Shown: piece after piece, positions 627-22,300 of the stretch
Position numbering within the stretch: the first letter of the stretch is position 1
Layout: the number at the start of each line of letters is the position of its first letter
Origin: a virus
Length of the DNA: 43,750 nt
Virus record (IMG/VR): IMGVR_UViG_3300031857_000404
Span: 1-43,750 of that record
Reading direction: 5' to 3' (one strand)
The notes under the pieces: model-generated
Databases searched by the model: none
Told to the model about the DNA's origin: nothing
The model's input: the letters and a program-made list of their open reading frames with translations, nothing else
Program-made: the position numbers and the translations under genes

Positions 627-827
627 ATGCGACAAGCGATTCCAGAACAGGCGCCGCTCTTTATCGGTTTTGCCAGTGCGGGCGCCGCGCTTGCCCATAG
701 GGAAGGCGCCGGCGGATGGATCTTCGTTCCAGACAGTGCGGCGGGCGCCATTTGGTTTGATCGTTCCCTAACCGCTAGCGTTGTGATGCGCCACCATGCC
801 GCGAAGGGGAGCGGCCGCCTAATCTAA
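627..827 (+). CDS. Hypothetical phage protein, 66 aa
   Basis: The ATG at 627 was chosen because GGGAG lies at a normal distance upstream and the start sits two bases after the previous stop codon. The upstream in-frame ATG at 612 lies inside the previous gene. The protein is Gly/Ala-rich with no recognised motif. Its stop is followed directly by the hammerhead ribozyme at 829-894. Confidence 0.6.
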   Translation: MRQAIPEQAPLFIGFASAGAALAHREGAGGWIFVPDSAAGAIWFDRSLTASVVMRHHAAKGSGRLI

Positions 828-828
828 A

Positions 829-894
829 GCCGAAACTAGGGCCATGCGCCCTAGTCATGGGGAATTGTCCGTTCCCCGTCTGATGAGGCAGGAC
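829..894 (+). ncRNA. Type II hammerhead ribozyme with loop-I pseudoknot (copy 1)
   Basis: Every hammerhead core element is present in type II order (stem II open). Stem II is GCC 829-831 with GGC 887-889. GAA follows at 832-834. Stem III is ACTAGGG 835-841 with CCCTAGT 849-855. The cleavage-site base is C856. Stem I is ATGGGG 857-862 with CCCCGT 874-879. CTGATGA lies at 880-886. The pairs A15.1-U16.1 (835/855) and G10.1-C11.1 (887/831) are intact. The 11-nt stem I loop holds GTCC (867-870), which pairs with GGAC 891-894 to form a pseudoknot beside the ribosome binding site AACAGGAAAGG. Cleavage after 856 would leave a 56-nt leader on the gene at 913. Type II hammerheads with such pseudoknots are known in bacteria; activity here is inferred. 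Confidence 0.9.
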
Positions 895-912
895 AACAGG
901 AAAGGTTGGATT

Positions 913-1191
913 ATGTCGCAGTCATTCAAATGCGAACCGTTCCCTAATACCATGGTATTCGCCAGCGCGCGCAAGATAGGGCGCGGCGCCAAGGCTGGAT
1001 CATATCGGGCGATTGTCCGCACCGTAGAGCGTTCAGCTTGGACGGCGCCTTGCGTTAGCACATTCAAGAGTTTTGCCGCTTTTGTGAATCGCTGCGATGC
1101 GCTGGAAATTGCGGCCGATGCGGCGCGCGAAGCTGCAGCAACCGGCTATGTGCCGGGGCACATGGCGAAGCCTTGGGAGCAAGTGCCATGA
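913..1191 (+). CDS. Hypothetical phage protein, 92 aa, behind hammerhead leader
   Basis: The start at 913 is set by AACAGGAAAGG (895-905). An in-frame upstream ATG at 844 lies inside stem III of the ribozyme and is rejected. The protein is basic and soluble, with several aromatic and Cys residues but no motif I recognise. It overlaps the next gene by 4 bp (ATGA), so the genes from 913 to 1893 form a translationally coupled string. Being first cistron after the ribozyme suggests its expression, or that of the whole string, is set by cleavage or by the pseudoknot. Confidence 0.65.
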   Translation: MSQSFKCEPFPNTMVFASARKIGRGAKAGSYRAIVRTVERSAWTAPCVSTFKSFAAFVNRCDALEIAADAAREAAATGYVPGHMAKPWEQVP

Positions 1192-4073: not shown

Positions 4074-5594
4074 ATGAACGCGCAAACCACGATTGACGCG
4101 CCCGGCCAAGCCGTCGCCACTTTCGCCAATATCGACGAACTTTGCGAGGGCCGAAATCGCGCCCTGGCGCATTGGCTGGCCGCTTATGATGGATTCCACA
4201 CCGAAACCCGCGCGGCCGGGCTGGCCTGCATCGGCCGCGCCTTCCTCTCGATTCCGCCCGGCAATAACCGCTATGACGAATCGACCCTTGCCGCCGACTT
4301 CCTGCGCGCCCCGGATCAATTCGAGACTGAGCGCCTTGACGGCTGGAAAGAGGTTAAGACCCCGGCGCGCGAGGTCTTCGAGCGCAGTTTGACCCGCGAG
4401 CTTGACCGCTCCGCCTGGCAAGCATTGCTCGACCTGACCGGCGGCGGCGAATTGATGGACCGGCAAGCCAAAGAGGAATGGCGCGCCAGTCTCAAAGACC
4501 CTGCCCCGTTCACGCCTGAGAACTGCAAGGCGACGTTCGCGCACCTTTGGGGCAATCGCCGCGAATTGTTCCTGCGCGGGATCGCTAACACGTTTTCGCG
4601 GCTCGATCGCCGCTTTAGGTCGCATGACGGGTTCAAGATTGGCGCCCGGCTGATTATCGACGGCGGGCTAGATACCGATTACAGCGCGCCGCACTGGAAA
4701 GCCTACGAGCGGCGCGACACGTTCGAGGACGTGGAAAGGCTGCTCTATGAGCTCGACGGCAAGCCCTACCCCAGCCGCGTTGACAAGGCGCGCCGCGAGG
4801 ATGGCGAGGAATGGCCCGCGCTCGCTTCCGAGGCCGTAACCAAGCTGAGCCGCGCCAATCTCCCCGAGGTTGTCACCGGGCCTTATTTCCGGGTCCGGGT
4901 GTTCAAGAATGGTAATCTGCACATTTGGTTCGAGCGCGAGGATCTGTTGCGCGAGGTTAATAGGCTGCTCGCCGAATACTACGGCGAGGCGATCGGCGAC
5001 GGACACAACGAAACCGAGGCGCACAGCGCGCCCGAATACCATTTGACCCCGGCTAAGAATTTCGGCGCCTTCAACACCTCGCCCGAACTGGCCAAGCGGG
5101 TTGCCGGTTTCGCCGATATTCACAAGGGGCAAAGCGTGCTCGAGCCGAGCGCGGGGACGGGCGAACTAGCCAAGGCCGCGCGCGCACTTGGCGGCGATGT
5201 CCGCTGCATGGAAATTCAGCCCGGCTTGGCGCACGAGCTGGCCCAGGTTCACGGCTTCCGCACCTGGAACGGCGATTTTCTCAAAGCCACCCCGGCGGAC
5301 CTTGGCACCTTTGACCTTGTGTTGATGAATCCGCCGTTTGATCGCGGGCGCGACTGCGACCACGTTCGGCACGCCTGGCAATTCGTCAAGCCGGGCGGCA
5401 AGCTGATTGCGATCATGTCAGCTCGCGCCGAATATGGCGAGGATTCGCGGCACAAGGCCCTGCACCGGCTGATCGAGGGCGCGCAATCCTGCTACGGGCG
5501 CGAGTCGTGGCACGATCTGCCGCCGGGCTCGTTCGCCCATGCCGGCACCCAGGTTAACACGGTAGCGCTGACCTTGCGCAAGCCTGCGACCTAG
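4074..5594 (+). CDS. DUF4942 domain / N6-adenine DNA methyltransferase fusion
   Basis: The N-terminal half (about 30-310) resembles DUF4942, a domain of unknown function fused to phage and plasmid methyltransferases. The C-terminal 170 residues are a class I SAM-dependent methyltransferase. Motif I is VLEPSAGTGELA (about 354-365). An acidic strand end (CMEIQP) follows, then catalytic motif IV NPPF (about 419-422). The NPPF motif points to N6-adenine modification. Such enzymes usually protect phage DNA from host restriction or set methylation marks; no cognate endonuclease is visible. It ends the operon starting at 2814, and the second hammerhead begins six bases after its stop. Confidence 0.9.
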   Translation: MNAQTTIDAPGQAVATFANIDELCEGRNRALAHWLAAYDGFHTETRAAGLACIGRAFLSIPPGNNRYDESTLAADFLRAPDQFETERLDGWKEVKTPAREVFERSLTRELDRSAWQALLDLTGGGELMDRQAKEEWRASLKDPAPFTPENCKATFAHLWGNRRELFLRGIANTFSRLDRRFRSHDGFKIGARLIIDGGLDTDYSAPHWKAYERRDTFEDVERLLYELDGKPYPSRVDKARREDGEEWPALASEAVTKLSRANLPEVVTGPYFRVRVFKNGNLHIWFEREDLLREVNRLLAEYYGEAIGDGHNETEAHSAPEYHLTPAKNFGAFNTSPELAKRVAGFADIHKGQSVLEPSAGTGELAKAARALGGDVRCMEIQPGLAHELAQVHGFRTWNGDFLKATPADLGTFDLVLMNPPFDRGRDCDHVRHAWQFVKPGGKLIAIMSARAEYGEDSRHKALHRLIEGAQSCYGRESWHDLPPGSFAHAGTQVNTVALTLRKPAT

Positions 5595-5599
5595 ACCCA

Positions 5600-5684
5600 G
5601 GCGAAACGCGCCCCCAATCCCCGCTTAGGAAACGGGCGGGGCGCGTCCGGCGGACTTGCTCAAGCCGCCGCTGATGAGCCGAGC
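5600..5684 (+). ncRNA. Type II hammerhead ribozyme with loop-I pseudoknot (copy 2)
   Basis: Stem II is GGC 5600-5602 with GCC 5678-5680. GAA follows at 5603-5605. Stem III is ACGCGCCCC 5606-5614 with GGGGCGCGT 5638-5646, with a further CCCG/CGGG pairing inside its loop. The cleavage base is C5647. Stem I is CGGCGG 5648-5653 with CCGCCG 5665-5670. CTGATGA lies at 5671-5677. Loop I (11 nt) carries GCTC 5658-5661, complementary to GAGC 5681-5684, immediately before AACAGGAAAGG. Every helix differs in sequence from copy 1 while core residues are identical: covariation in stems I, II, III and the pseudoknot. Cleavage would leave a 55-nt leader on the gene at 5703. Confidence 0.92.
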
Positions 5685-5702
5685 AACAGGAAAGGAATTG
5701 AG

Positions 5703-5996
5703 ATGGCGAATTGGTATAGCTGCCCATCGGCAGGCCACGAAATCCACGGTCAATCGCTTGTCATTGATGAAGCGACGGGCGCAAATATCGCGGTGGTCTA
5801 TGGTGACAGCCCCGGCGATGCCGAGTTGATCGCCGCCGCCCCGGCGATGCTTGAGGCGTTGCGCGAAGCGGTGGCGCGCGTCGCGTTGGCCAATGAGGAA
5901 GGCGAGCCGATTCTTTCGGCATGGCTGCCCGATGCCCGCGCGATCCTCGCCCGGATCGACGGCACCCCTACCGCGCAACCGGCGGGGGAGGGCTAG
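5703..5996 (+). CDS. Hypothetical phage protein, 97 aa
   Basis: The start at 5703 is preceded by AACAGGAAAGG, shared with the genes at 913 and 9198. The sequence contains DAELIAAAPAMLEALREAV, a helical segment common in small uncharacterised phage proteins. The function of that family is not known to me. It is the first cistron after hammerhead copy 2 and is followed closely by two more short genes. Confidence 0.7.
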   Translation: MANWYSCPSAGHEIHGQSLVIDEATGANIAVVYGDSPGDAELIAAAPAMLEALREAVARVALANEEGEPILSAWLPDARAILARIDGTPTAQPAGEG

Positions 5997-6398: not shown

Positions 6399-6414
6399 CC
6401 CCTACCTGACACAC

Positions 6415-6456
6415 CCGGCGCGGCGGCCCCCAAGCCGCCCGCGTTCCCCGCGCCGG
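6415..6456 (+). terminator. Strong GC hairpin after the 5703-6398 gene group
   Basis: CCGGCGCGG 6415-6423 pairs perfectly with CCGCGCCGG 6448-6456, and CGGC 6424-6427 with GCCG 6434-6437 extends it inward. No T-tract follows, so it is either a Rho-linked or attenuating structure, or an outer element of the leader for the gene at 6546. Confidence 0.4.
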
Positions 6457-6490
6457 CTACCCCGGTTCGGCGAAGGCGCAAGCCTGCCCC

Positions 6491-6529
6491 CTGCGACCTG
6501 CCCAAGCGCAGCGGGGATCAACCTGGGCA
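6491..6529 (+). ncRNA. Pseudoknot leader RNA of the sliding-clamp gene
   Basis: CTGCG 6491-6495 pairs with CGCAG 6507-6511, with CCCC 6487-6490 and GGGG 6513-6516 extending the helix past a bulged C. The 11-nt loop ACCTGCCCAAG presents TGCCC (6499-6503) to GGGCA (6525-6529), directly before the GGAG ribosome binding site. Loop size and the TGCCC/GGGCA helix match the leaders at 1938-2030 and 2300-2382. The linker contains CAAC. Confidence 0.6.
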
Positions 6530-6545
6530 TATGGAGTTGTTACAC

Positions 6546-9083
6546 ATGGAACATTCAACGATTGACCTTGCGGCCGCAACCGAAACCCGCGCCGCCTTCA
6601 CTATCGAGCCCAAGGCCTTCGACCAGGCCGCGGCCTTCCTCGCCCGGCGCGTGATCGAGAAGCGCAATTCGATTCCGATCCTCGCCCATATCCGGATTGT
6701 TGCGGACCTGGCTGGCACCGTCACCTTGACCGCAACCGATCTGGACAATTGCGCCAGCATCACGCTTGCCGCCACGGTCGAAAGCCCCGGCGCGGTCTGT
6801 GTCGAGGGCGGCCCGCTCGCCGATGCCGTCGCCAAACTGGTTAAGGGCAAGGCCTGGGAAATCCGCTTTACCGCCTGCGAGAACAACCGCGCCAAGCTCA
6901 GCGCGGGCGGCAATCGCGGCACGTTCACGCTCAAAACCCTGCCGGTCGATAATTTCCCGGTCGTGGCAGGCCCTACCGATGGTGAAACCCTATCCCGGTT
7001 TACCGTGCCGGCGGCGCGCTTCCTGGCTGACCTGGCCGCCCTGGCGCCGTGTATGGGCAGCGATGAACGCTATTACCTGAACGGCATTGCCCTGCAGCGG
7101 CGCGAGCTGGGCGGGCGCGAACGGCTGGCGCTGATCGCCACCGATGGGCACAATATGGGCGCTGCCAGCCGCCCTATCCCGGCCGGCGCGGAATCGCTCG
7201 AGGATTGCATTATCGGCCGCAAGACCGTTGCCTTACTCGGCCATGCCGGCAAGCTCGCCGGGGACTGCGAGGCCATGGCGATCGAGTGCGGCGGCGGGCA
7301 GGCAATCGGCGGGGAGAACGCGCCCGGCCTGCGGATCAATGACCGCGCCCGCTTCGACCTGGGTGACATCACCATTACCGCCAAGCTGATCGACGGCACC
7401 TTTCCGCAATGGGAGCGCGCTTTCGAGGCGGGGCTGGCCCCTACCGATGGAGACGCCTGCCTGTTTCCTGAATTGCTCCCCGGCGCCCCGGTCGCCGCGC
7501 TCGAAAAGCTGGGCAAGGCGGGCAAGGTCGCAATCGACTGGCAACCGGCGCGCGAGGGCATGATTGGCAGCGTTGCCGGGGATCCGGATCTGGTATTCGG
7601 GGCAATGGCGGTGCGCGACGGCGGCGCGGGCAAGCGCGATATGACCTACCAATGGAGCGGCACGGGCGAAGCGCTGGACTACCTTACCGCCATGGCAGAG
7701 GCGCAAGGCCTGCCTTCGCCCGATGAAATCAAGGCGCGGTGCAAGGCTTTCACCCCGGCCGGGCGCGATCCGGAAGCCTATTGGGGCTATGCCCATTGCC
7801 ACGGCGCGCAACTGATCCAGTGCGGCGCGCAAGTCATGGGCTTGACCGTTTCGGGGCAATACAAGGCGACCGGCTGGCGCGAGACGGTCCAGGACTGGGA
7901 AGCGCTGTGCGACCGCGTAGTCGACCACCCGGCAGAGGAAGGCGCAATCGAAGGCTCCTATTCGATTGTGATGCCGCGCGAGCGTGCGCAGCTCGAACCC
8001 GAAAGCCGGATCATCGGCCCGGATGGGGTCACCTATCCGGTTGCCATGGGCGAGCGTGGCATTGCGTTCTCGAAAGAGCAGGTCCGCGCGCTGATCGGCG
8101 AATCGTGCTTTGAAACGATGGAAATCGTGCTGCCCAACGGCAAGCCCGCCTTTATCCTGCAATGGCTTTGGGAGCAGGGCGATAGCCGCTTTCTCACCGT
8201 GCGGCCCAACGGGCGAACCTATGAAGGGGCGCCCTATGTGACGCGGGCGGAAATCGAGGCCGGGCCGGTCGAAGCGGAGCCGGAAGCGGCCGAGGTGGAA
8301 GCGGTGGCGGTGGAATATGCTGCGCCTGCCAGCCAGAGCGGCGCTGAGAGCGATTGCGAGCCTGATCCGGCGCAGGAGTGCGAAACCGTGGCGGAAGCGC
8401 TCAGCGAGGCTCCTGCGGCAAATTCGGAGCCTGTGGATATTATCGCGCCGGTTGAACTTTCCGATGATAGCGTAAAGTTGCCCGCGCCGGACCCCATGGC
8501 CGAACTCGCCGCCCGCGTGGCGGCGCTCGAGGCCCGGCTTGCCGCCCCCCTACCGGCGACAACCAGCGAGGGGGCTATCCCGGCTGCGCAGGAGCGGCCC
8601 AAGCGCACCCCGGCGCATGAGCGCGCGGTGCGGCGGGCCTGGGCGGAGCGCAAGGCTGCCAGGCTGCAACGCTCGATTGCCGAGGATCACATGCGGATGC
8701 GCGAACGCCTGCAGCACGAATTGCTCAAGGAAGGCCGGGCACATGAACGCACTATCGCCAAGCGCCGCCGCTCTACCGCGCTCGCCCGCCGTCGCGGCAA
8801 GGACATGGCAACCATGGCGGCGATGCTCCGCGATGCCCACGCCCGGCTCGCCAGCACCGGCGACAGCGAGGCCATGCAGGCCCGGTCGATCGCCGAAAGC
8901 CAGGCCGCGGCGCAATACCTCAATGCCCGCGCCGCGAGCGAATCGCTGCTGATCATGCAGGCGAGGGCGGAACGCGAGCGGCTGCGCGCCGACAAGGCCG
9001 AAACCGCGCTTGCTGCGGTCCAGGCCCGCGCCGATGGCTGGCCGCCGGCGGTGCGCAATGTCAGCGTGCGGTTCGCGGCCTAG
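6546..9083 (+). CDS. DnaN-like sliding clamp with long C-terminal extension
   Basis: Residues 1-300 follow the bacterial beta clamp. NSIPILAHI (41-49) and LTATDLDN (61-68) mark domain 1. FTLKTLPVDNFPVV (127-140), YYLNGIAL (177-184) and IATDGHNMG (198-206) mark domain 2. DGTFPQWERAF (283-293) is the usual loop. A domain-3-like part is diverged or interrupted by about 200 residues. Beyond about 565 come an acidic low-complexity linker and a basic helical, probably coiled-coil, tail. At 845 aa it is more than twice the usual clamp length (about 370). The likely role is a phage processivity clamp or a decoy that recruits host polymerase. ATG 6546 is chosen over 6531 for its GGAG at 9-nt spacing and its place behind the leader pseudoknot. 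Confidence 0.85.
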   Translation: MEHSTIDLAAATETRAAFTIEPKAFDQAAAFLARRVIEKRNSIPILAHIRIVADLAGTVTLTATDLDNCASITLAATVESPGAVCVEGGPLADAVAKLVKGKAWEIRFTACENNRAKLSAGGNRGTFTLKTLPVDNFPVVAGPTDGETLSRFTVPAARFLADLAALAPCMGSDERYYLNGIALQRRELGGRERLALIATDGHNMGAASRPIPAGAESLEDCIIGRKTVALLGHAGKLAGDCEAMAIECGGGQAIGGENAPGLRINDRARFDLGDITITAKLIDGTFPQWERAFEAGLAPTDGDACLFPELLPGAPVAALEKLGKAGKVAIDWQPAREGMIGSVAGDPDLVFGAMAVRDGGAGKRDMTYQWSGTGEALDYLTAMAEAQGLPSPDEIKARCKAFTPAGRDPEAYWGYAHCHGAQLIQCGAQVMGLTVSGQYKATGWRETVQDWEALCDRVVDHPAEEGAIEGSYSIVMPRERAQLEPESRIIGPDGVTYPVAMGERGIAFSKEQVRALIGESCFETMEIVLPNGKPAFILQWLWEQGDSRFLTVRPNGRTYEGAPYVTRAEIEAGPVEAEPEAAEVEAVAVEYAAPASQSGAESDCEPDPAQECETVAEALSEAPAANSEPVDIIAPVELSDDSVKLPAPDPMAELAARVAALEARLAAPLPATTSEGAIPAAQERPKRTPAHERAVRRAWAERKAARLQRSIAEDHMRMRERLQHELLKEGRAHERTIAKRRRSTALARRRGKDMATMAAMLRDAHARLASTGDSEAMQARSIAESQAAAQYLNARAASESLLIMQARAERERLRADKAETALAAVQARADGWPPAVRNVSVRFAA

Positions 9084-9089
9084 CCCTAT

Positions 9090-9128
9090 CGGTGGAAACA
9101 GGGGGTGGGTTGCGCTCACCCCCTACCG
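9090..9128 (+). terminator. Hairpin after the sliding-clamp gene
   Basis: AGGGGGTG 9100-9107 pairs with CACCCCCT 9117-9124, and CGGT 9090-9093 with ACCG 9125-9128, separated by a one-sided bulge GGAAAC. No T-run follows. It sits seven bases after the clamp stop codon and so fits a 3' stabiliser or attenuator. It superficially resembles the hammerhead stem III but lacks the core. Confidence 0.4.
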
Positions 9129-9146
9129 TGGGTTACCATGCCCGCA

Positions 9147-9178
9147 CCGGATCAGCTCGCGCCGGGACCATGCAGAGC
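9147..9178 (+). ncRNA. Pseudoknot leader RNA before the gene at 9198
   Basis: CCGG 9147-9150 pairs with CCGG 9162-9165 across the 11-nt loop ATCAGCTCGCG. The loop GCTC (9155-9158) is complementary to GAGC (9175-9178), which abuts AACAGGAAAGG as in hammerhead copy 2. The hairpin stem is short, and no CTGATGA or GAA core is present, so this is the hammerhead-type 3' end without the catalytic centre. Confidence 0.5.
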
Positions 9179-9197
9179 AACAGGAAAGGTTGAGACG

Positions 9198-12757: not shown

Positions 12758-13084
12758 TCAGTCCTTCCTCAGTTGGTCGAGCCCGGCCTTGAGCGGGTCG
12801 GCGGCGTTCTTCGCGGCATCGCGCGCGGCCTTGTTGCCCGCTTCGACTTCGGCGCTGGTCGCTTCGCTGGCCTCGATCGCATCGATCGCGGCAGCGCTGC
12901 TCACCGCCTCGACCTCGCGCTTCACTTCGGCCTCATGCTCGCGGATCAGCGAGCGGTCGTAGCAGCCCTTGAGCACCGCCAGCAGCGCGAGCACCGCCAG
13001 CGCGGCGGTCAGCCAGGCCAAAGGCTTCCGCACCCATTCGGGCAGGCCCCAGCGGGCGAACAAGGCGATAAGCGGGGTCAGCAT
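12758..13084 (-). CDS. Rz-like inner-membrane protein (i-spanin candidate)
   Basis: The start at 13084 (MLTPLIALFARWGLPEWV) is chosen over 13195, which runs into the upstream gene. One transmembrane helix (WLTAALAVLALLAVL, about 21-36) is followed by a long charged Ala/Glu/Lys coiled-coil tail, the pattern of i-spanins. It lies immediately upstream of the lipoprotein and should pair with it. The tail is shorter than in lambda Rz (153 aa). Confidence 0.7.
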   Translation of the reverse strand: MLTPLIALFARWGLPEWVRKPLAWLTAALAVLALLAVLKGCYDRSLIREHEAEVKREVEAVSSAAAIDAIEASEATSAEVEAGNKAARDAAKNAADPLKAGLDQLRKD

Positions 13085-19346: not shown

Positions 19347-22300
19347 TCAGTAACCGCTCGTCCGGCTGAACCCGAGTGCGGCGAAGCCGTCGGTGCTGAT
19401 CGTGGTCAGCGTTCCAGCGCTGCGCAGCCCCACCGCGGTCAGTTCGATCAGGGTGCCAAGGTTCTGGTTGGTCGCGGCGATTCCGGCGGCCAGCGTATCG
19501 GTCTGGACTGCAATCGTCGCCACCACCTGGGTGTTGTCGTTGGCCGGAGTCACCGGGCTGTCGGCGAACGGGCTGGTTCCGCCCGATGAGGCGGTGAGCA
19601 GCGCGTCCTGCGCCGCCAGCGTGGTCCTGGTCAGCGCGGTAACCTCTTCGAGCAGCCGGAAATAGTCCGGGGTCGAGCCCGAGAGGTCGCGCTGGATCGC
19701 GAGCAGGTCGCGCGCCGCCTGGGCATAGTCGTCGAACGCGGTGGTGTCGCCCGCCGCAACCCGCGCCGCAAGCGGCTGATAGGCGGCCTGCGCGGCACTC
19801 AGCCGGTCGCGCAGCGAAAGCGCGTCGTTGCCGATGGTCAGGTCGGCGAGCAACGCTTTGAGCGATCCGGTGAGTCGTTCCCCGGCTTCCTTGATCGCCT
19901 GCGCTCGCTCGATCCCGTAGAGTTCTTCGAGCTGGGCAAACTCGGCCGCGCTCGCCCCGGCCTCGGTGAAGATGCCCTTGAGTCGGGTGAATTCCTTGTT
20001 GAGTTCGTCGATCGCCGCGCCGACCGGATCCTTGATCGCACGCAGCCGCTTGAACACGCCCTCGAAGTCGAGCGCCTTGCCAATCTGCCGTTCGAGATCT
20101 TTGCCCGACTTGAGCAGTCGCTGCGCGCCCTGCGAGATCCCGGTGATCACCCCGTCCTGAATCGCATCGAGGATCGCGGCGCGGATCGCGGCTTCCTGAT
20201 CCTGGCCGAAATCGAGCACACCCGCGCCCTTGGTTCGGCCCTGTCCGGTGGTATCGACGCGGTAGCTTTTCTTGCGGATGCCGATCGAGACCCCAATCGG
20301 GCCATCGGCGGTGCCGCCAAGCTGTTCGGCAATGCGGTTGAGCGCGTCGCTGACCGAATCCCCAGCCCCGCTCGCCGCCTCGCGCCGGCTTGCGCTATTG
20401 CCACTGACCGAGCCGACCGAAACGCCGTCCGGGCCGGCGGTCAGGGTTGCCGAAGCCTTCTTGGTCTTCTTGAAGATGCTGCCGATCAGCGAGCCGATGA
20501 TCGAGCCGATGATCTCGCCGCCGGGAATGGGGAGCGCGGAGCCGATCGCCCCGCCGATCTGCGCGCCGGTGGTCGAATTCTTGATGCCCAGCGAGTCCAT
20601 CAGTCCGGAGATCTGCGTGCCGGTTTGTGCGCCGCCCAGGGCACCGCCAAACGCGCCGCCGATCTTGGTGTCCTTGCCGAACAGGTCGCGCAGCCCGCCC
20701 AGCACCGCGCCGGGTGTACCAGCGGTAATCTGGCCCTCGATCACACCGGACAGCACCGAGCCGATCTTGCCCGCGAACTTCTCGCCGAGCAGCGGCTTGA
20801 GACCTTCGGAAATCGGCTCGGCCATGCGCTTGGCGATCTCGGCCGCCCATTTGGCCGGATCGAGTTGGTCGCCCACCTTGTCGATCTTCTTGCCGACCAC
20901 CACGATCTCGTTGGTGCTCTCGCCGACCGCCGCCTCGATCTCAGCGCTGTTGTCATTGGCCGCAGCCGAAGGAGAGCCATAGATCGAACCGAACGCGGCA
21001 TCGAACGCCGAAGGTGCTGCGCCTGGGGCCACCGGCCCGGCCGGGATGGCGCGCAGCTTGGCGACAGTGCGCGCGAACTCGTCAGCCGCTGCGCCCGACG
21101 CCTTGCCGGCGCGCTCGGTCTCGGTCGAGAAATAGTCGACGCTCGCGCCCAGCCCGGACTGGCCCTTGAGCCATTCGTCCATCTTGCGGAAGGAATCGCC
21201 GAACAGGCGCTCGACAGTGATCTGCGCCTGCAGCCGCTTGAAGATCTTGCCGATGTTGCCGATCGAGCCTTCGCCGGCGAAGATCGAGACCAGCTCGTCT
21301 TTCACGCTGCGGGTCGCAGAGAGGTATTCGCCGATGATCGCGCGCTTGCGTTCCAGTTCCTCGCTGTGGAGCCGCTCGCTGCGCACCAGGTCGAGGATCG
21401 CCGCCTTGCGCTCGTCGGTGAGGTCGCCGATCGTGTCCTCAAGCCGCCAGATGGTTTCGAGCGCCTGCGCCTCGTCCTCGCGTCCGGCGGTGATCAGCGT
21501 CTCGATCTGCAGGCGGCGTTCCGAGGCTTCGGCCAGCTCCTCGAACGGGCGCACCAAAGCCTCCTGGATCGTGGCCTTGGCGGCCTGCGCCTCGGCGATC
21601 ATGTCGGCGAACCCGGGCGGCTTGCGCTCGGCCAGTTCGGCAATGGTCTTGTCGAGATCGCGGGTCGCGGCATTAGCGGCGTCGATCAGCCGGGGCTGCT
21701 CGTCGAAGCGCTCGTTGATCCGGGCGATGCTTTCGGCGGAGCGTTCGCCAAAGGCCTGCAACTGCTCGGCAGCCTGTTTGGCGCGCTCGACCGCGCGCTC
21801 GGCGGCTTCGTTAACCTTGACATCGTCGACCGGGAACAGGCCCTTGCTAGGATCAACCTTCTTGCCGTTGACCGTGACTTCGTAGTGCAGGTGCGGCCCG
21901 GTCGAACGCCCGGTGCTGCCAACCTTGCCGATGGTCTGCCCCTGCTCGACGCGCGCACCTTCGGAGACCACGGCGTTATCAGAGAGGTGGCCGAACCGGG
22001 TCTTGGTCCCACCGCCATGATCGATCACCACATATTTGCCCAACGTCGGGCTGAACCCGACCGCCTCGACCACCCCGATTTGCGGGGCCTTGACTGCAGT
22101 TCCAGTTGGTGCGGCGAGGTCGAGGCCGCCATGGCGGTGGCCCGGGCGCTGCTCGTTGAAGCGGCCCGTCACAGTGCCGCCCGCTACTGGATTGATGAAC
22201 TGGGCAAGCCCGGTGACTTCGCGGGTCTTCTTCTCGCTCTCCCGGATCGCTTTCAGTTCGGCCTCTTGCAGCCCGAGCAGGCGCTCACGCTCCTTGCGGT

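Follow-up and report, generated by a model that had tools for sequence, protein, structure and literature searches.

Two type II hammerhead ribozymes between stop codon and Shine-Dalgarno sequence in the early arm of an uncultured tailed phage

Genes and ribozymes of the early arm

The window, by which we mean the whole 43,750-base stretch of DNA analysed, is a virus record in which the terminase large subunit, portal and tape-measure-like genes all lie on the minus strand. The plus strand carries an early/replication arm, in which a DUF4942/methyltransferase-like gene is found together with a sliding-clamp/RusA-like fusion (ORF 6531–9083, 850 aa, with an N-terminal part that is DNA polymerase sliding-clamp-like and a weak match to a RusA-like resolvase family). 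The source is an uncultured tailed phage. A nucleotide comparison of the first 12 kb of the record with 50,697 named phages gave no match, and all matches of the terminase protein fell below 60% identity. The phage's only near relative in collections is a contig 99.99–100% identical to it, and no independent relative was found. Two type II hammerheads, copies 1 and 2, are located in the early arm:

627–827, plus strand: ORF upstream of copy 1, 66 aa; stop TAA at 825–827
829–896, plus strand: type II hammerhead ribozyme copy 1 (descriptor, RF02276 at 32.1 bits, fold)
829–831 / 887–889, plus strand: copy 1 stem II (sequence)
836–842 / 848–854, plus strand: copy 1 stem III (sequence)
855–856, plus strand: copy 1 UC, predicted cut 856/857 (sequence)
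857–864 / 872–879, plus strand: copy 1 stem I (sequence)
865–870 / 891–896, plus strand: copy 1 pseudoknot, UUGUCC with GGACAA, 6 Watson-Crick pairs
880–886, plus strand: copy 1 core CUGAUGA (sequence)
913–1191, plus strand: gene downstream of copy 1, 92 aa, no family match
4074–5594, plus strand: gene upstream of copy 2, DUF4942 and methyltransferase-like domain; stop TAG at 5592–5594
5600–5686, plus strand: type II hammerhead ribozyme copy 2, pseudoknot tail included (descriptor, RF02276 at 34.2 bits, fold)
5600–5602 / 5678–5680, plus strand: copy 2 stem II, GGC with GCC (sequence, fold)
5603–5605 and 5606, plus strand: copy 2 core GAA and A15.1, the latter pairing with U16.1 at 5646 (sequence)
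5607–5614 / 5638–5645, plus strand: copy 2 stem III, CGCGCCCC with GGGGCGCG (fold)
5646–5647, plus strand: copy 2 U16.1 and H17 (C5647), predicted cut 5647/5648 from the hammerhead rule
5648–5670, plus strand: copy 2 stem I hairpin, CGGCGG 5648–5653 with CCGCCG 5665–5670 (sequence, fold)
5656–5661 / 5681–5686, plus strand: copy 2 pseudoknot, loop I UUGCUC with tail GAGCAA, 6 Watson-Crick pairs
5671–5677, plus strand: copy 2 core CUGAUGA (sequence)
5688–5695, plus strand: Shine-Dalgarno (SD) region AGGAAAGG of the gene after copy 2 (sequence)
5703–5996, plus strand: gene downstream of copy 2, 97 aa, weak match to phrog_1273 (unknown function)

Both copies carry the CUGANGA and GAA core strands, the A15.1–U16.1 pair and an H17 that is not G, and all of their core bases are canonical. 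Stems I and III are loop-closed and stem II is open. The loop I–tail pseudoknot, for which we took at least four base pairs as the mark, reaches six in each copy. In the predicted fold of copy 2, the 23-nt loop of stem III (whole element 5607–5645) contains a small extra hairpin, CCCG/CGGG. The 3′ strand of the copy 2 pseudoknot ends one nucleotide upstream of the SD region, and, if the RNA is cut, the downstream mRNA would start at the stem I hairpin of this copy.

The first-pass annotation had described copy 2 as a type II hammerhead with a core identical to that of copy 1, a loop-I pseudoknot and a cut before position 5648. Its reading of the architecture is borne out by the core, the stems, the minimum-free-energy fold and the RF02276 matches; direct reading of the sequence confirms the shared core and the pseudoknot, and the cut position agrees with the hammerhead rule. 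The near-equal distance from cut to start codon also stands, at 55 nt in copy 2 (ATG at 5703) and 56 nt in copy 1 (ATG at 913). Of the extent it gave, 5600–5684, the start is correct and the end falls short, since the pseudoknot strand reaches 5686.

The rest of the near-identical relative, a 59-kb contig, holds no further ribozyme copies. A search for homologues of the flanking genes returned just this relative and one distant homologue of the downstream gene, and host genome collections returned none. Because the distant homologue has no ribozyme, the ribozyme link is not gene-specific.

Class membership and covariation

Phage-associated, clustered and pseudoknotted type II hammerheads have been described already (Perreault et al. 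2011, PMC3088659). The ribozyme class is thus known, and the addition made here is its gene context, the stop–ribozyme–SD layout. Both copies resemble the family RF02276 (PMC3088659) in strand order, core, UH cut site, short stem II, the pseudoknot of loop I with the tail after stem II, and clustering around phage genes. They depart from it in that copy 2 has a stem III loop both long and structured, that copy 1 has a long stem I, and that both scores lie a few bits below the gathering cut-off of 37 bits. Copy 2 scored 34.2 bits, with E-values of 0.0007 in a 12-kb scan and 6e-7 in a single-family search. Copy 1 was recovered, at 32.1 bits (E 4e-5), only when a stretch of 201 bases was scanned; neither the 12-kb scan nor that of the whole record detected it. 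Because this match appears in the short-range scan only, default Rfam annotation would overlook copy 1; at the gathering threshold, the whole window gave no Rfam match. The gathering score is a threshold set by curators, not a structural feature. We kept the type II assignment because the structural features are all present and the E-values run from 4e-5 to 7e-4.

We then scanned the window with a structural descriptor that asks for the core, A15.1, UH, a minimum of 4 bp in each of stems I and III, and a minimum of 2 bp in stem II. Its matches are exactly copies 1 and 2, and it found nothing in 300 dinucleotide-preserving shuffles searched on both strands. A minus-strand RF02276 match at 21690–21750 was rejected as noise, as it scores 13.1 bits, far under the cut-off, and is not recovered by the descriptor. 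Scans of the fetched loci for type I and type III hammerheads gave three candidates only, none of them in the window. The unconstrained minimum-free-energy fold of each bare sequence is the hammerhead three-way junction; the folding program used for junctions cannot draw pseudoknots, and the loop I–tail pairs were counted separately.

Read by eye from the core outward, 10 of the 22 base pairs differ on both sides between copy 1 and copy 2, and none is broken. The double changes fall in stem II (1/3), stem I (3/6), stem III (4/7) and the pseudoknot (2/6). The claim of "full covariation" between the copies was therefore a mild overstatement, as not all pairs changed. That the elements are a chance look-alike, or a decayed and inactive hammerhead, is scarcely credible: scores under the Rfam gathering score and a total folding energy within the usual range for such GC-rich DNA (z −1.1 and −1.8 for the two copies) would suit such an origin, but the intact core, the empty shuffles and the double changes without a broken pair speak against it.

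Covariation extends to the class. We searched IMG/VR with a non-circular pattern restricted to the core letters and stem II (GGCGAAAC, GTC, CTGATGAGCC). Stems III and I lay beside the core in 138 of 165 distinct core-chosen sites, against a mean of 0.55 (maximum 4) with shuffled spacers; the sequences in the class sets are partly related, and such counts are not counts of independent events. Across the core-chosen sites, stem I is 96% paired and stem III 91% paired, compared with 49% and 47% with re-dealt partners, and every position of the two stems shows all Watson-Crick pair types. At least four Watson-Crick pairs joined the loop to its own tail in 112 of 217 cases, a pairing that the search pattern did not require, and to the tails of other ribozymes in 44 (maximum 59). 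The window's own loops reach six pairs with just 0% and 1.4% of other tails. Together with the shuffles and the Rfam model, these core-letters-only relatives exclude chance, which the first-pass annotation had judged very unlikely. By sequence and structure, copies 1 and 2 are true type II hammerhead ribozymes, with self-cleavage predicted.

The same comparison bears on a selfish or neutral origin, in which the ribozyme is a passenger in a mobile or recombining leader cassette and brings the phage no benefit. Such an origin is very unlikely. It would account for a third leader that has the identical tail GAGCAACAGGAAAGG (9175–9189) without a hammerhead core, and for associated genes that are not constant (also PMC3088659). 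However, compensatory change keeps the stems and the pseudoknot across very different phages, and the bias toward the coding strand and toward a set spacing is strong.

Position between stop codon and start codon

The two ribozymes are packed tightly between genes. Each begins just after an upstream stop codon, by 1 nt in copy 1 and 5 nt in copy 2, and each ends at the SD sequence AGGAAAGG of the next gene, which places both in a leader directly upstream of a gene's SD, as in RiboJ-like insulators. Neither junction has a terminator-like site or, in a scan for sigma-70-type promoter sites only, a promoter-like one, so transcription probably reaches the downstream genes by read-through.

This packing recurs in the class. 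An SD-led start codon lies within 70 nt of 169 of 205 type II hammerheads that were fetched without downstream letters in the pattern, compared with 28% of random positions. Across the whole set (n = 236, a minority of it fetched with an SD-containing pattern), the median distance from cut to start is 56 nt, with quartiles of 51 and 59. Where an upstream ORF ends nearby, its stop codon falls within −20 to +10 nt of the first base of the ribozyme in 156 of 209 cases. Predicted accessibility of the SD is 0.54 before and 0.56 after the cut (187 leaders, folded without pseudoknots).

We propose that the hammerheads split a polycistronic early message into units with uniform, structure-capped leaders, as a natural counterpart of RiboJ, and probably set message stability gene by gene; our analysis makes this the likely role. 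The proposal builds on the observed architecture, the non-chance occurrence, the covariation across the class and the gene context. RNA polymerase would read through the compact early operon in which both ribozymes lie, and each ribozyme would fold when its tail is transcribed and then cut co-transcriptionally, at 856/857 or 5647/5648. The upstream mRNA would keep the stem III hairpin at its 3′ end, where a 2′,3′-cyclic phosphate is expected. The downstream mRNA would start with a 5′-OH, the stem I hairpin and the loop I–tail pseudoknot immediately before the SD. A uniform leader of this kind would probably tune mRNA stability for each gene; the effect on stability and expression is one that we infer. 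Counting against this reading, both copies fall short of the Rfam cut-off, an apical CUU/AAG pairing in loop I competes with the pseudoknot, stem II is limited to 3 bp, the stem III loop of copy 2 is long, just two among the many gene junctions of this phage carry a ribozyme, and the distant homologue of the downstream gene lacks one.

Splitting of the message fits better than unmasking of the SD, because predicted SD accessibility is unchanged by the cut, and we rejected the unmasking model on this ground. The same result bears on a regulated switch, in which a ligand, a protein or ribosomes terminating upstream control the cut and the cut state sets downstream expression. The upstream stop codon is so close to the ribozyme (1–5 nt) that a ribosome terminating there would sit over stem II and GAA, and with the pseudoknot strand abutting the SD, folding could face competition from a 30S subunit. 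We nonetheless consider a switch unlikely: besides the constant accessibility across the 187 leaders, stems and loops vary freely in the class with no conserved aptamer-like sequence, and the type II hammerheads described so far cleave rapidly without help (PMC3088659).

Alternatively, the main role could lie upstream, in releasing or protecting the 3′ end of the preceding mRNA with a hairpin and cyclic phosphate, in place of a terminator and without regard to the downstream gene. The cut does leave stem III as a 3′ hairpin 1–5 nt past the upstream stop, at junctions where no terminator-like site was found, but the tight spacing to the downstream SD and start (quartiles 51–59 nt) and the retention of the pseudoknot by the downstream product make this quite unlikely as the main role.

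Message splitting has parallels in known systems. RiboJ-type hammerhead leaders give a uniform 5′ UTR, and higher mRNA stability has been reported for them (PMC7536230); like them, the window copies would provide a fixed, structured mRNA 5′ end before the SD, here by prediction. RiboJ differs in being engineered, with an added hairpin, and in sitting after a promoter, whereas the window copies sit between operon genes. It is a type III hammerhead, and its strand order differs from theirs.

HHphage of haloviruses HF1/HF2 is likewise a hammerhead just upstream (13 nt) of an early-gene start codon, and a 5′ end was mapped to within 3 nt of its predicted cut (PMC3088659). It belongs to a virus of extremely halophilic archaea and has a core variant, structurally analogous to one that needs high Mg2+, in contrast to the canonical cores of the window (PMC3088659). 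Clustered phage-related hammerheads cleave in vitro, and one was active in E. coli (PMC3088659).

Arrays in other phages and further structured leaders

Other phages carry hammerheads in arrays. RF02276 alone gave 8, 8, 11, 11 and 7 matches in five phage records, on a single strand within each; one record is Streptomyces phage Hank144, and a second shares about 89% identity with Streptomyces phage Sentinel. Among annotated Streptomyces phages, we counted 3 hammerheads in R4, 8 in Hank144, 7 in Sentinel, 6 in Diane and 5 in Alvy, all on the early-operon strand and none on the opposite strand. Hammerheads occupy 19 of the 36 intergenic gaps of at least 50 nt in the annotated phages.

It is possible, and we put it forward tentatively, that phage early operons in general mature their mRNA by means of type II hammerheads, which would amount to RiboJ insulation in natural form. 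As many as 11 ribozymes in an array, each fitted exactly into the space from stop codon to SD at one gene junction after another, would yield 5′-OH, pseudoknot-protected, capped-like mRNAs of one or a few genes each. A 2017 review called the role of bacterial and phage hammerheads an open question (PMC6155905). The stop–ribozyme–SD packing and the fixed distance to the start bear on it, and arrays in culturable Streptomyces phages make the purpose of the hammerheads directly testable in laboratory phages. We found no description of the packing or of the Streptomyces phage arrays in the literature searched, which lay outside subscription journals, and the available part of PMC3088659 describes neither the packing nor arrays as large as 11.

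In several of these phages, an annotated start codon lies 4–26 nt past the predicted cut, inside the ribozyme; examples are the starts at 12914 and 12231 in R4, 10559 in Hank144 and 10013 in Sentinel. Because they fall inside predicted hammerheads, these gene starts are probably misannotated, which is a practical annotation problem.

A third gene junction of the window, at 9084–9197, has a leader tail (9175–9189) identical to that of the copy 2 leader, and a hairpin loop, GCTC, that could pair with GAGC. We rejected it as a hammerhead, as the CUGAUGA core is absent and neither RF02276 nor another RNA family matched it. One possibility is a hammerhead leader that has decayed or been exchanged, another a structured RNA of a different kind.

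Strong structure is predicted for four long, GC-rich intergenic stretches, at 1894–2044, 2249–2397, 2731–2813 and 6400–6530; like the hammerheads, they lie at gene-block boundaries. The first two, for which Rfam gave no convincing match, have in common a hairpin of the type CCTATC...GTTTA...GATAGGC. The word CCCTATC has 11 sites on the plus strand of the window and 2 on the minus strand, a strong strand bias. The sites cluster in the early arm, within genes as well as between them, at, for example, 1894, 2250, 2299, 2746, 6988, 7172, 9084, 9874 and 11050.
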